Shown: in pieces, positions 44 through 10,236 of the stretch
Numbering within the stretch: the stretch's first letter is position 1
Layout: the number at the start of each line of letters is the position of its first letter
From: Candidatus Stoquefichus sp. SB1
GTDB lineage: Bacteria; Bacillota_I; Bacilli_A; Erysipelotrichales; Coprobacillaceae
Length of the DNA: 64,000 nt
Direction of reading: 5' to 3'
Assembly: GCF_001244545.1 (NCBI RefSeq)
Contig: NZ_LN852692.1
Coordinates: forward strand, 1 to 64,000
Program-made: the position numbers and the translations under genes
The notes under the pieces: model-generated
Database searches by the model: none
What the model saw: the letters and a program-made list of their open reading frames with translations, nothing else
What the model was told of the DNA's origin: nothing

Positions 44-1570
<1,527 letters not shown>

Positions 1571-1799
1571 AGGGAGAAGAGAAGACGTGGAGATCTGTTT
1601 AGTTTTGAATGTGCGTTGCGTGCATTCAAGGCAGGAACATTGAAAACTGAATAGCAAACTAGCAAAAACTTTTTACAACAGAAAAGAAGATAGATGAAGA
1701 AGAAACGAGATCAGGAAAGAGATTGAAGGTCGATTCATCTAGTTGCAAAAAACTAAGATAAACAAAAGAGAAAACAAGAAAAAGAACTTGAACACTTTA
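1571..1799 (+). other. 16S-23S internal transcribed spacer without tRNA genes
   Basis: A 229-nt A-rich spacer. No tRNA-Ile or tRNA-Ala cloverleaf is visible. It holds a short hairpin at about 1606-1630 (TTGAATG...CATTCAA) inside a motif (about 1592-1632) that recurs in the 23S-5S spacer, as expected for rRNA processing or antitermination signals. Confidence 0.8.
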
Positions 1800-4713
<2,914 letters not shown>

Positions 4714-5216: not shown

Positions 5217-6239
5217 ATGAAAAATAAAAAATATTTTTTGAATATTGCAATTATTTTAATTATTGGTGGCGTTTCTATCTATTTATCAATTGGGAAGCAA
5301 TTTGACCAGATTATTCGTTCTTTTCAGGAAGCAAAAGTCAGTTGGATTATTGTTATGGGGATTATTATGTTTAGTTATTACCTTTTTGATGCTTTATCAT
5401 TACTGTATTTTGGGAAAGCCTATAAAAAGGATTATACTTTCAAACAATCTTTTATTAATGCAATTAGTGGAACTTTCTTTAATGGTATCACGCCTTTTGC
5501 AAGTGGTGGACAATTTGCTCAAGTTTATATTTTTAATAAGCAAGGAATTCCACCAACCAATTCTGCAAGTATTCTCTTAATGTGCTTTATTTGTTATCAA
5601 AGTGTACTTGTTGTTTATACTGGAATTGTTTTGCTTTTAAAATATAGTTATTTTGTAAATGAACAAGCTGGTGTTTTTAGTTTGGCAATTTTAGGTTTCT
5701 TTATTAATTTTGCAGTTATTTTAGGTTTGTTTGGTGGTGCAAAATCAAAGAAATTACAAAACTTTTTAACACATACAGTTTTGAAGTTTTTAAGTCGTAT
5801 TCATATTGTTAAAGATTATGAATTAACTTGTATAAAAATTGAACAATATCTTTCAGATTTCCGTGAACAGTTACGCTTTTTACAAAAAAATCGGCAAGTT
5901 TTGGTTCGTTCTTGTATATGTAATTTTATAAAGTTAACCATTATTTATAGTATGCCTTTTTTTGCTGCTAAAGCATTGAATTTAAATGTATCATGGAGTT
6001 CATTTCTGGATTTTTTAGGTCTTTGTTCATTTATTTATTTGATTAATGCTTTTTTACCAATTCCTGGCGCAAGTGGTGGTAGTGAAGGAATTTATGTTTT
6101 GTTATTTAGTTTTTTAGGTCCAGTAGGGACATCTTCATCACTGTTTTTATGGCGTTTTATGTCTTATTATTTAGGTTTGATTATTGGAGGACTGATTTTC
6201 TCTTTAAATAAGGAAATTAATAATTCGAGATTGGAGTGA
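5217..6239 (+). CDS. Flippase-like integral membrane protein (LPG synthase TM-region / UPF0104 family)
   Basis: A 340-residue, multi-pass hydrophobic protein of the family that includes the membrane half of MprF and archaeal AglD. Seen: repeated long hydrophobic segments, the family-type motif NGITPFASGGQFAQ at about residues 83-96, and FLPIPGASGGSEG near residue 281. Family members move or modify lipid-linked molecules; the substrate is not visible here. It abuts a GT4-RecX fusion gene, and a flippase-like protein next to a diacylglycerol-type glucosyltransferase suggests a role in glycolipid or lipoteichoic-acid-anchor export (inference). Start is the ATG at 5217 with a weak AGGA site after a hairpin. 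Confidence 0.85.
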   Translation: MKNKKYFLNIAIILIIGGVSIYLSIGKQFDQIIRSFQEAKVSWIIVMGIIMFSYYLFDALSLLYFGKAYKKDYTFKQSFINAISGTFFNGITPFASGGQFAQVYIFNKQGIPPTNSASILLMCFICYQSVLVVYTGIVLLLKYSYFVNEQAGVFSLAILGFFINFAVILGLFGGAKSKKLQNFLTHTVLKFLSRIHIVKDYELTCIKIEQYLSDFREQLRFLQKNRQVLVRSCICNFIKLTIIYSMPFFAAKALNLNVSWSSFLDFLGLCSFIYLINAFLPIPGASGGSEGIYVLLFSFLGPVGTSSSLFLWRFMSYYLGLIIGGLIFSLNKEINNSRLE

Positions 6240-6244
6240 TTGAT

Positions 6245-8236
6245 GTGAATATTGCTTTATTTAGTGATACGTATTTACCAGATATTAATGGAGTAGCAAC
6301 GTCTACACATATTTTAAAAAAAGAATTAAAAAAACATGGGCATCACGTTTTGGTAGTCACAACAATGCTACCGCATGATAGTGATTATCAGGATGATGAT
6401 ACTCATGTTTTGCGTTTACCAGGTTTAGATTTAAAAAGTCTTTATGGATATCGTGCTTCTAATATTTATTCTTTTAAAGGTATGAAAGAACTGAAAGATT
6501 TTCAGCCAGATATTATTCATATTCAAACTGAATTTGGAATTGGTATTTTTGGTAAAATTGCTGGTGAAATATTAAATATTCCAGTATGTTATACTTATCA
6601 TACAATGTGGGCTGATTATTCTCATTATATTGCTCCTGGGAATATTAAAGCAGTTGATCAGGCAGCTAAAAAGATTATTGAAAAAATATCAAAGATATAT
6701 GGTGATAGCTGTTCTGAACTGATTGTTCCTTCTCAAAAAACAGCAGATGCATTAAGAGAATATGGCATTTCAAATTCTATTAATGTTATACCTACTGGTT
6801 TAGAGTTAGACAAATTTTCAATTGCAAATAAGAATCAGGAAATGATGAATGATATCATTCATCAATATCATCTTCAAAATAAATTTGTAGTCACTTTTTT
6901 AGGGAGAGTTGCTCCTGAAAAAAGTATTGATTTGTTAATAGAAGCTATGTATGAAATTGTTCAATACAAAAAGAATATTTGTATGATGATAGTTGGTGGC
7001 GGTCCACAAATTGAAGAATTAGAAGAAATGGTTCATCAGTATGGATTAGACCAATATATTTATTTTACTGGTCCAAAAGAAAGTGAATTTGTTCCTTCGT
7101 TTTATCATGTTTCTGATTTGTTTGTTTCAGCTTCCATTACTGAAACGCAAGGATTAACTTTTATTGAAGCTATGGCGAGTGGGATTCCAGTGTTAGCCAG
7201 ATATGATAAGAATTTAGAAGGGGTTATTATTGATGGACGTAATGGCTATTTCTTTAATGATAAAGTAGATTTGGTTCAAAAAATTATCCAGTTGTCTAAA
7301 CAGTCATTGAAACAATTAACCAAAAATGCATTAGAGGATGCTAAGCAGTATAGTAGTGAGAATTTCTATCAAAAAATTATGAAAACTTATCATAAAGCTT
7401 TAGCCAAACATCATTATTGTTATGAAGTGGTGGCATTGACACCGGATAAGGGACATACTTATAATGTGGCATTTCAATTTGATAATCATCAAGTGATTAT
7501 TCATTTGTCTTCGCAAGTGGTTGAGCGTTATGGATTAAGTGTTGGACAAGTTGTTGATAGAGAAGAACTGGATGCCTTAAAAGATCAGGAACAGGTTTCT
7601 CGAGCTTATCATTTGGCATTAAAATATTTAACGTATAAAGATTATAGTTATGCTAAAATGCAAAAGAAATTAGCTGATAAAGGTGATTTTGATGATATTC
7701 AAATAGAAATGACAATGGAGTTGTTAGTTCAAAAGAATCTCATTGATGATGTAGAGTATACAAAAAATTATTTTCAAAAGGCTAAACGAATGGGTGTAGG
7801 TGTTAACAAGATTGTCTATAATCTGAAAAGAGAAGGAATCTCACCTTTTGTGATTGATGAATATTTAGCAGATTATTCACCAGATCTTGAATATGATAAG
7901 GCTGTTGAGATTGTTAAGAAATTATATAATGAAAATACAACGAAACCACAATATGCATTAATTCAAAATATCAAGAATAAATTATTTAATAAAGGATTTT
8001 CACAAGATGTTGTTGAAAGAGCAATTAATGATTTTGATTTTGTATTTCCTAAAGAACATACTCAGAAACTTTTAACAAAAGAGTATTATCGTGTATATAA
8101 TCGATATAAGAATCGTTATGAACCACAAATTCTAAAAAGCAAAGTCATAACATTTTTAGTTCAAAAAGGGTATGAATATGATGATGTTGTAGAAATTATT
8201 AGAGAGTTATGGGAGGAAAATAATGATAAAGATTAA
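6245..8236 (+). CDS. GT4 glycosyltransferase fused to a full-length RecX domain
   Basis: About 663 residues. The first ~390 form a GT-B glycosyltransferase family 4 enzyme: an N-terminal start FSDTYLPDINGVATS, the acceptor-side HTMWADYSHY, and the nucleotide-sugar motif ETQGLTFIEAMASGIPV. It resembles 1,2-diacylglycerol 3-glucosyltransferases (alMGS/LafA type), which make monoglucosyl-diacylglycerol at the membrane. From about residue 394 the protein is a complete RecX homologue, including its N-terminal beta region, the LALKYLTYKDYSYAKM helix repeat and LIDDVEYTKNYF. RecX normally inhibits RecA as a separate protein. I chose GTG 6245 because GGAG at 6233-6236 is eight bases upstream; GTG 6236 would sit inside that site. 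No stop or frameshift lies at the junction. Confidence 0.85.
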   Translation: MNIALFSDTYLPDINGVATSTHILKKELKKHGHHVLVVTTMLPHDSDYQDDDTHVLRLPGLDLKSLYGYRASNIYSFKGMKELKDFQPDIIHIQTEFGIGIFGKIAGEILNIPVCYTYHTMWADYSHYIAPGNIKAVDQAAKKIIEKISKIYGDSCSELIVPSQKTADALREYGISNSINVIPTGLELDKFSIANKNQEMMNDIIHQYHLQNKFVVTFLGRVAPEKSIDLLIEAMYEIVQYKKNICMMIVGGGPQIEELEEMVHQYGLDQYIYFTGPKESEFVPSFYHVSDLFVSASITETQGLTFIEAMASGIPVLARYDKNLEGVIIDGRNGYFFNDKVDLVQKIIQLSKQSLKQLTKNALEDAKQYSSENFYQKIMKTYHKALAKHHYCYEVVALTPDKGHTYNVAFQFDNHQVIIHLSSQVVERYGLSVGQVVDREELDALKDQEQVSRAYHLALKYLTYKDYSYAKMQKKLADKGDFDDIQIEMTMELLVQKNLIDDVEYTKNYFQKAKRMGVGVNKIVYNLKREGISPFVIDEYLADYSPDLEYDKAVEIVKKLYNENTTKPQYALIQNIKNKLFNKGFSQDVVERAINDFDFVFPKEHTQKLLTKEYYRVYNRYKNRYEPQILKSKVITFLVQKGYEYDDVVEIIRELWEENNDKD

Positions 8237-9170
8237 AGATATGAAGTGTGGTAATGACAATGTGGAATTTACTGCAATGATTAATCATGTAACAACAGGT
8301 AAGACAAATGGTGCAAATAAAAGTAATTATTTAAGTATTGTTTTTCAAGATGATACAGGAACAATTGATGCTAAACTTTGGAATGCAAGTGATGAGCATA
8401 TTCAGTCTTTAAAAAATGGAGCTGTTGTGAGAGGGAAAGGTGATATTATTAAATATAGTGATGATCGTCAAATGAAAATCATTAGTATTGATGATGTATC
8501 TTATCAACAATCACAGCAAGTAGAATTTTTAACGAAAGCTCCTCTTGATAGTGAAACAATGATGAATGAGTTAATGAGGTATGTCAAACAAATCTCTAAT
8601 AGTAAACTTTATGTCTTAACAAAACATCTTTTTGAAAAGCAAATGGAAGCATTGAAAATTTATCCAGCAGCCAGTAAAAATCATCATGATTGTGTATCTG
8701 GATTGGCTTTTCATACTTTGTCAATGTTAAAAGTTGCTGAAAGTATGTTAACTATTTATCCTCAATTAAATGCCGATTTAATGTATGCTGGTATTTTATT
8801 GCATGATATTGGAAAAACTGTTGAGTTAAGTGGACCTGTTGTGCCAACTTATACAATGGAAGGCAAGATGTTAGGGCATATATCAATTGCTCAGGCAATG
8901 GTTTATCAGGCTGCCCAGGAATTAAATATTGAGGGTGAAGAGGTAGTTTTATTGCAACATATGATTTTAGCTCATCATGGCAAAAATGAATTTGGTTCTC
9001 CTGTTCTTCCACAAATTAGAGAAGCAGAAATGATCTATTTGATTGATAATATAGATGCAAGAATGAATATGTTTGATAAAGCTTTAGATCAAGTGAATGC
9101 AGGAGAATATTCAAAACGTATTTTTGCATTAGAAAATAGAACAATTTATAAACCTAAAATGTATGAATAA
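8223..9170 (+). CDS. yhaM: YhaM-like 3'-5' exoribonuclease (OB-fold plus HD domain)
   Basis: 315 residues, the usual YhaM length. An N-terminal OB-fold (about residues 15-90, with YLSIVFQDDTGTIDAKLW) is followed by an HD phosphohydrolase domain: H155 region (KNHHDCVSGLAFHTLSM), LLHDIGKTVEL near 195 and LAHHG near 250. YhaM-family enzymes trim single-stranded RNA 3' ends in the cytoplasm. The gene overlaps the end of the GT4-RecX gene by 14 bases, so the two are probably translationally coupled; the reason for the pairing with RecX is unknown. Confidence 0.88.
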   Translation: MIKIKDMKCGNDNVEFTAMINHVTTGKTNGANKSNYLSIVFQDDTGTIDAKLWNASDEHIQSLKNGAVVRGKGDIIKYSDDRQMKIISIDDVSYQQSQQVEFLTKAPLDSETMMNELMRYVKQISNSKLYVLTKHLFEKQMEALKIYPAASKNHHDCVSGLAFHTLSMLKVAESMLTIYPQLNADLMYAGILLHDIGKTVELSGPVVPTYTMEGKMLGHISIAQAMVYQAAQELNIEGEEVVLLQHMILAHHGKNEFGSPVLPQIREAEMIYLIDNIDARMNMFDKALDQVNAGEYSKRIFALENRTIYKPKMYE

Positions 9171-9202: not shown

Positions 9203-9225
9203 AAAAAAAGTGGCTATTTAGCCAC
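9203..9225 (-). terminator. Terminator for the minus-strand GT4 gene
   Basis: Read on the minus strand: GTGGCT/AGCCAC stem followed by seven T residues. The stop codon of the gene lies in the stem. Confidence 0.8.
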
Positions 9226-10236
9226 AATGCTTTGATAAAATTCTTTCCACATATCTCTGACATGTTCTTTTGTATAATATTGACTAATGTCATGAGAATA
9301 TTGACTATATTGATTATATAATTCTTGATTTGTTTTTAAATCACTCAGTTTTTGAACAAATCCAACGTTTGTTGTATCAGATAAGTATTTCTGGAATAAG
9401 ATATCTTTATAAAGGTCTAAATCTCTTAATAGAAGAGGTTTTTGACTATTGATGGCTTCTAATATGGACATAGGGAATAATTCGTTATATGAGGGCATAA
9501 AAAGCACATCAGCGATATTATAAATATGATTCATTTCTTCTCTAGGAACAATCCCTATAAATTTAACATTTTGTGGAGGATGATTATAAATATCTTTTAA
9601 TTCATCATATCCATCAGTAATCTTTCCAAAAGAAAATCCTCCCGCCCATACAAATGTTACATCAGGTAACATTTTTGCGACTTCAATAAAATCTTTCACA
9701 CCTTTTCTTGTCTGAACTTGTCCAACCCCCAAAACAACAAAAGTATCAGTATCTATGTGATACTTCTTTTTTGTTGAAACAACAACATCTTGACTTTCCT
9801 GATAGAAAGCTTCTTTTGATACATAATTAGGAATATATCGTATTTTTTCTCTAGGGATCCCAAATTGAACAAGATCTTCAATAAAAATAGGATTTACAAC
9901 AATTAAATAATCTGCTGTATTATAAAAGTAAGTAATATATTTCTTAAAAACTTTTAAGGCTGAACTAGGTAAACGGATACTGCCATCAAGGGTATCAGGT
10001 AAAAAATGAACATAGGCAACATTGACCCCTTTATTTCTTTTCATTTTGATGAGATATTCAGGAAGTATCGTGTGACAATGAATAATATCAGCAGGTTTTG
10101 AGTCATTGATAACCACTTCAAATTCATCACTTAATTCATCCTTGATTAAAGAAACTTGTTCAAGATAAGCACTACCAACCCCCTGACCATCAACTTTATC
10201 AGCATTAGATAACATATTTATTCTTATTTTAGCCAT
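9214..10236 (-). CDS. GT4 family glycosyltransferase, probable glycolipid synthase
   Basis: 340 residues, GT-B fold family 4. Seen: glycine-rich N-terminal loop VDGQGVGSAYLEQ, GVNVAYVHFLPDTLDGS near residue 91, VVLGVGQVQTRKGVKDFIEVA near 167, and the donor-site motif PSYNELFPMSILEAINSQKP near 252. The pattern resembles enzymes adding a second sugar to glucosyl-diacylglycerol (LafB/diglycosyl-DAG synthase type). Convergent with the operon carrying the GT4-RecX enzyme, so the locus may hold both steps of diglycosyl-diacylglycerol synthesis; that is inference. ATG start preceded by AAGGAGAA. Confidence 0.8.
   Translation of the reverse strand: MAKIRINMLSNADKVDGQGVGSAYLEQVSLIKDELSDEFEVVINDSKPADIIHCHTILPEYLIKMKRNKGVNVAYVHFLPDTLDGSIRLPSSALKVFKKYITYFYNTADYLIVVNPIFIEDLVQFGIPREKIRYIPNYVSKEAFYQESQDVVVSTKKKYHIDTDTFVVLGVGQVQTRKGVKDFIEVAKMLPDVTFVWAGGFSFGKITDGYDELKDIYNHPPQNVKFIGIVPREEMNHIYNIADVLFMPSYNELFPMSILEAINSQKPLLLRDLDLYKDILFQKYLSDTTNVGFVQKLSDLKTNQELYNQYSQYSHDISQYYTKEHVRDMWKEFYQSIVAK

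Follow-up and report, generated by a model that had tools for sequence, protein, structure and literature searches.

A glycosyltransferase of the glucosyl-diacylglycerol type and RecX in one protein, probably an ancient fusion characteristic of Erysipelotrichales

The glucosyl-diacylglycerol synthases of glycosyltransferase family GT4 are monotopic membrane enzymes with UDP-glucose as substrate, and RecX is a protein that binds RecA filaments and limits them. In Candidatus Stoquefichus sp. SB1 (NCBI order Erysipelotrichales), a glycosyltransferase of this type and a RecX are specified by a single reading frame, and no description of such a fusion was found in the literature searched, including by domain architecture. 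The window analyzed here is a 64,000-nucleotide stretch of contig NZ_LN852692.1 (positions 1 to 64,000, forward strand), and the features in and around the fusion gene are as follows.

5217..6239, + strand: flippase-like membrane protein (LPG_synthase_TM / GlcN_PG_flip family; ORF, Pfam, NCBIfam), with its stop 5 nt before the fusion start
6245..8236, + strand: GT4-RecX fusion gene, 663 aa (ORF, profile matches, relatives)
6245..7411, + strand: GT-B/GT4 glucosyl-diacylglycerol-type transferase domain, residues 1-389 (Pfam, NCBIfam, AF2, fold matches)
7142-7168, + strand: retaining-GT EX7E motif, E300-E308, in the GT half of the fusion
7412..7417, + strand: junction, with hardly any gap between the last GT helix (371-389) and the first RecX strand (392) (AF2 model and junction alignments)
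7418..7558, + strand: RecX N-terminal beta region, residues 392-438 (AF2 and junction alignments)
7604..7720, + strand: RecX_HTH1, residues 454-492 (Pfam)
7745..7867, + strand: RecX_HTH2, residues 501-541, at 20 bits, under the 26-bit cut-off (Pfam)
7880..8032, + strand: third three-helix repeat, residues 546-596, with invariant G584-F585 (AF2 and conservation)
8069..8194, + strand: fourth repeat, best RecX_HTH3 match, residues 609-650, with conserved G642-Y643 (Pfam, AF2, conservation)
8223..9170, + strand: YhaM-like 3'-5' exoribonuclease, OB and HD domains (ORF, Pfam, NCBIfam)
9214..10236, - strand: IagA/BgsA-like LTA glycolipid-anchor GT4, convergent (NCBIfam)

The fusion ORF runs from a GTG at 6245 to the TAA ending at 8236 without an internal stop, which confirms the initial observation, made in a sequence-only reading of this DNA, that GT4 and RecX are joined in one frame. 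The start agrees with Met1 of ten relatives in an alignment, and translation could also begin at the in-frame GTG at 6236. With the flippase stop so close upstream, and with the ATG of yhaM (8223) overlapping the end of the fusion by 14 nt, the flippase, fusion and yhaM genes form a compact unit of three, which follows an rRNA operon; the coupling to a YhaM-like nuclease had also been noticed at the outset. The IagA/BgsA-like GT4 gene lies upstream within the same operon in some relatives (L110, L113).

Pfam GT4 domains cover residues 14-362 of the fusion, and the best NCBIfam model for this half is that of the MGlcDAG synthase (265 bits over residues 1-388; the cut-off of 400 is not reached), both of which support the proposed glucosyl-diacylglycerol type of the enzyme. 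The AF2 model of the fusion is of moderate quality (pLDDT 69.6, built with 11 close sequences), and its best 50 fold matches are all glycosyltransferases, such as MshA and BshA, and all concern the GT half, while a search of the PDB with the sequence of this half gave no matches at 1e-15. The GT-B fold, GT4 domains and EX7E motif by which an MGlcDAG synthase is recognized are all present. Family and operon together suggest that the GT half has UDP-glucose:diacylglycerol glucosyltransferase activity.

The C-terminal half had been described as a complete RecX with an N-terminal beta region and three helix repeats. The beta region and the full set of repeats are indeed there, but the repeats appear to be four rather than three, as the AF2 model predicts twelve helices after the beta region, arranged as four three-helix repeats. 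Pfam RecX_HTH3 matches this half twice, the best match being that at 609-650, and HTH1 and HTH3 score above their cut-offs. The NCBIfam model PRK14135 gives 153 bits over residues 404-655, below its cut-off of 240, a value reached by none of the genomes in the class sample. The PDB list contains two solved RecX structures of the Lactobacillus type, and the RecX half matches both by sequence. Of 50 columns conserved in stand-alone RecX proteins, the RecX of the window keeps 43, and the fraction kept is 0.84 in fused members of family f1, 0.82 in fused members of f2, 0.86 in the outgroups and 0.81 in members of the order that have RecX only. A general loss of functional RecX residues among the homologues, which would have spoken against the first reading, is therefore not what is seen, and judged by its sequence this half is still a RecX. 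A search of the whole genome, as had been suggested for a stand-alone recX, found a gene for RecA and no second recX.

The search for this architecture, extended over the order as originally proposed for Erysipelotrichia, covered 245 genomes; of the 150 matches listed, 148 are a single full-length frame of at least 650 aa (rows counted by eye). Because the same frame recurs to this extent, the arrangement reflects more than chance. The other two matches are one in which the GT reading frame is broken, possibly by an assembly indel (G059), and one at a contig edge (G042). Named relatives with the fusion include Candidatus Stoquefichus massiliensis (90% identity), Longibaculum muris and Massilimicrobiota. 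In a sample of the phylum (n = 295 genomes), fused frames (625–696 aa) are confined to the order; outside it, RecX frames are at most 317 aa, save one marginal match in G537, and RecX is separate there. The fusion is likely to be ancient, genuine and characteristic of nearly the whole of Erysipelotrichales. That two genes had merely been joined by a frameshift in assembly, a doubt raised by the sequence-only reading itself, gains something from the separate, overlapping genes found in sister families, but the same fused frame is repeated in independent isolates and in MAGs from two families, which rules out an assembly frameshift and leaves this explanation with virtually no probability. One genome, G241 (L066/L106), appears unfused but was not used as evidence, as an in-frame stop also interrupts its yhaM; at L106 this stop lies in yhaM at 1190-2119 (+), and in the same contig the frame is shifted by one base at the GT-RecX junction, reflecting either assembly error or decay. 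Two further genomes (G041 and G062) gave no candidates for either RecX or RecA, possibly because sequence is missing from them, and were left out of the counts of losses.

The working proteins could nevertheless be separate, if the polypeptide were processed or if an internal start or promoter yielded RecX as well. A perfect sigma-70-like sequence (TTGACA-18-TATAAT), the only perfect one in the window, is found inside the CDS at the GT-RecX junction (7436-7465, + strand), and in-frame GTG or TTG codons occur downstream of it at codons 417, 421 and 425. However, the site is weaker in relatives, and when the gene is shuffled synonymously a perfect one arises in 443 of 3000 rounds (15%). Internal starts are likewise not conserved, several fused genes having no start codon in the linker, and an SD-like match is present in 14 of 72 fused genes, at scattered positions. 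An internal start or promoter was rejected, the site being unconserved and within chance, and we regard separate working proteins as improbable.

Both halves are under purifying selection and RecX is the more strongly constrained, with dN/dS values of about 0.01–0.09 for RecX and 0.06–0.21 for GT across eleven close pairs, which are rough estimates as dS is near saturation; in the same pairs the junction is mostly under purifying selection too. In about 25 genomes of the order, no GT gene adjoins recX while yhaM is still alongside it, and in the tree such RecX-only descendants are found at several places within f2, inside the fused clade. In G133, the flippase gene still abuts recX and GT alone is missing. 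The RecX of G084 has a 143-residue N-terminal extension, the first 95 residues of which match the start of GT better than 300 of 300 shuffles. This gene (L051, 1480-2637, - strand) has the look of a fusion fossil, a GT stump on RecX that retains the first ~90 GT residues and probably the last helix but has lost the core. A different N-terminal extension, of 185 residues with three similar repeats (ERAASAAREIGAPISQS...) and unrelated to GT, is carried by the RecX of L070 (G220, 1486-2763, - strand) and of L112. No orthologous GT without RecX was seen and RecX is kept where GT is lost, so that RecX appears to be the half that cells retain.

These losses bear on the idea that RecX has stopped acting on RecA and now serves the glycolipid enzyme as a recruited module, structural or regulatory. 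The fusion is tight, the GT helix being predicted to end at residue 389 and the first RecX strand to begin at 392, and some stand-alone-RecX columns differ in the family of the window (e.g. 424, 523, 530 and 606), as such a role might lead one to expect. Against this, about 25 genomes keep RecX after losing GT, the conserved columns are retained as well as in RecX-only relatives, and the genome has RecA and no other RecX. Recruitment as a module is unlikely on this balance. The earlier suggestion that RecX serves simply for localization or protein binding is similarly disfavored, since RecX survives the loss of GT and is the more constrained half.

Two other families of the class, f8 and f19, show the likely ancestral state, in which GT4 and recX are separate genes in the order flippase - GT4 - recX - yhaM (flippase upstream where seen). 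Most of their recX genes begin with a GTG that lies 22 nt ahead of the last base of the GT stop, and the relative phase of the two frames is constant in every case. At L158-L161 (f8, genus g117), the arrangement is flippase - recX - yhaM with GT absent, an independent loss of GT outside the order in which recX was again kept. In four further families of this class (f7, f9, f13 and f18), a GT28 gene (MGDG-synthase/UgtP-like) lies directly upstream of recX and overlaps or abuts it in most members checked. Such GT28-recX loci (L083, L084, L088, L079, L080, L092, L185-L188, L190-L192 and L195) represent a recurrent pairing of recX with a diacylglycerol transferase of another GT family. In a tree of RecX and YhaM, the GT28 families fall outside the clade of all GT4-linked and fused members, and the simplest reading is a GT28-recX pair, then replacement by GT4 in place, then fusion. 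In both families of the order the GT and RecX profile ends lie 32–36 residues apart, a nearly constant spacing, and linker residues are common to both in the junction alignment; this near-constant length and the shared residues favor one fusion. The best tree places f2 with f8/f19 at a support of 77, order monophyly not being rejected (p 0.28), and as the tree does not settle a single split of the order from f8/f19, two fusions, or one fusion and one fission, are possible. The puzzle in the initial remark, that a lipid enzyme joined to a RecA regulator has no obvious logic, is largely answered because GT4 and recX were very probably overlapping operon neighbors before they fused.

We therefore consider it probable that the gene arose by an ancient merger in which both halves keep their ancestral jobs and RecX is carried on a membrane enzyme. 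An operon of flippase, GT4, recX and yhaM, with GT4 and recX overlapping out of phase, would have undergone a small frame change at the overlap that merged the two into one protein. The N-terminal half would use UDP-glucose to glucosylate diacylglycerol on the inner face of the membrane, and the C-terminal half, the only RecX of the cell, would still limit RecA filaments, presumably by binding RecA. Since the GT4 synthases are, as a family, monotopic membrane enzymes, RecX would now sit on a membrane-associated enzyme at a ratio of 1:1 with it. This location may be functional, or it may have followed neutrally from the merger of two overlapping genes. A functional role is best hinted at by the fact that recX is repeatedly paired with diacylglycerol transferases of two different families, GT28 (f7, f9, f13, f18) and GT4 (f8, f19 and the whole order); it seems that one transferase replaced the other in place next to a recX that remained, and that the link in the end became covalent and was kept across the order. 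These points could be taken to mean that control of recombination is coupled to membrane glycolipid synthesis, with RecX deliberately held at, or regulated through, the diacylglycerol glycosyltransferase, an idea that we put forward tentatively and think rather doubtful. The original observation is confirmed, and the interpretation first placed on it is partly supported.

Should RecA still be a target of the fused RecX, a whole order that includes many gut bacteria controls recombination via a membrane-carried protein, and a spatial tie of RecA control to the membrane becomes a testable question. Knock-outs of recX in the order would also delete the glycolipid enzyme unless designed by domain. 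The fusion also illustrates clearly how overlapping genes can turn into one protein, and how that protein can later be reduced again.

The fusion can be set against two known systems and one identified in this analysis. Compared with the alpha-monoglucosyldiacylglycerol synthase GT4 (NF049988), the GT half aligns end to end (residues 1-388 to model positions 1-390 of 398), has the EX7E motif in common with it, and is encoded in one operon with a flippase, joined in some relatives by an IagA/BgsA-like GT; it differs in scoring 265 against a cut-off of 400 bits and in its RecX tail, and its activity is a prediction. With the long Firmicutes RecX (PRK14135; solved relatives 3e3v and 3d5l) it shares the beta region and three-helix repeats and keeps the conserved columns, but here RecX is the C-terminal 270 residues of a glycosyltransferase and falls below the equivalog cut-off. 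The third counterpart is the unfused f8/f19 operon, which has the same four genes in the same order with related GT4 and RecX, and where GT4 and recX are separate, mostly with a 22-nt overlap, whereas in the window they are fused.
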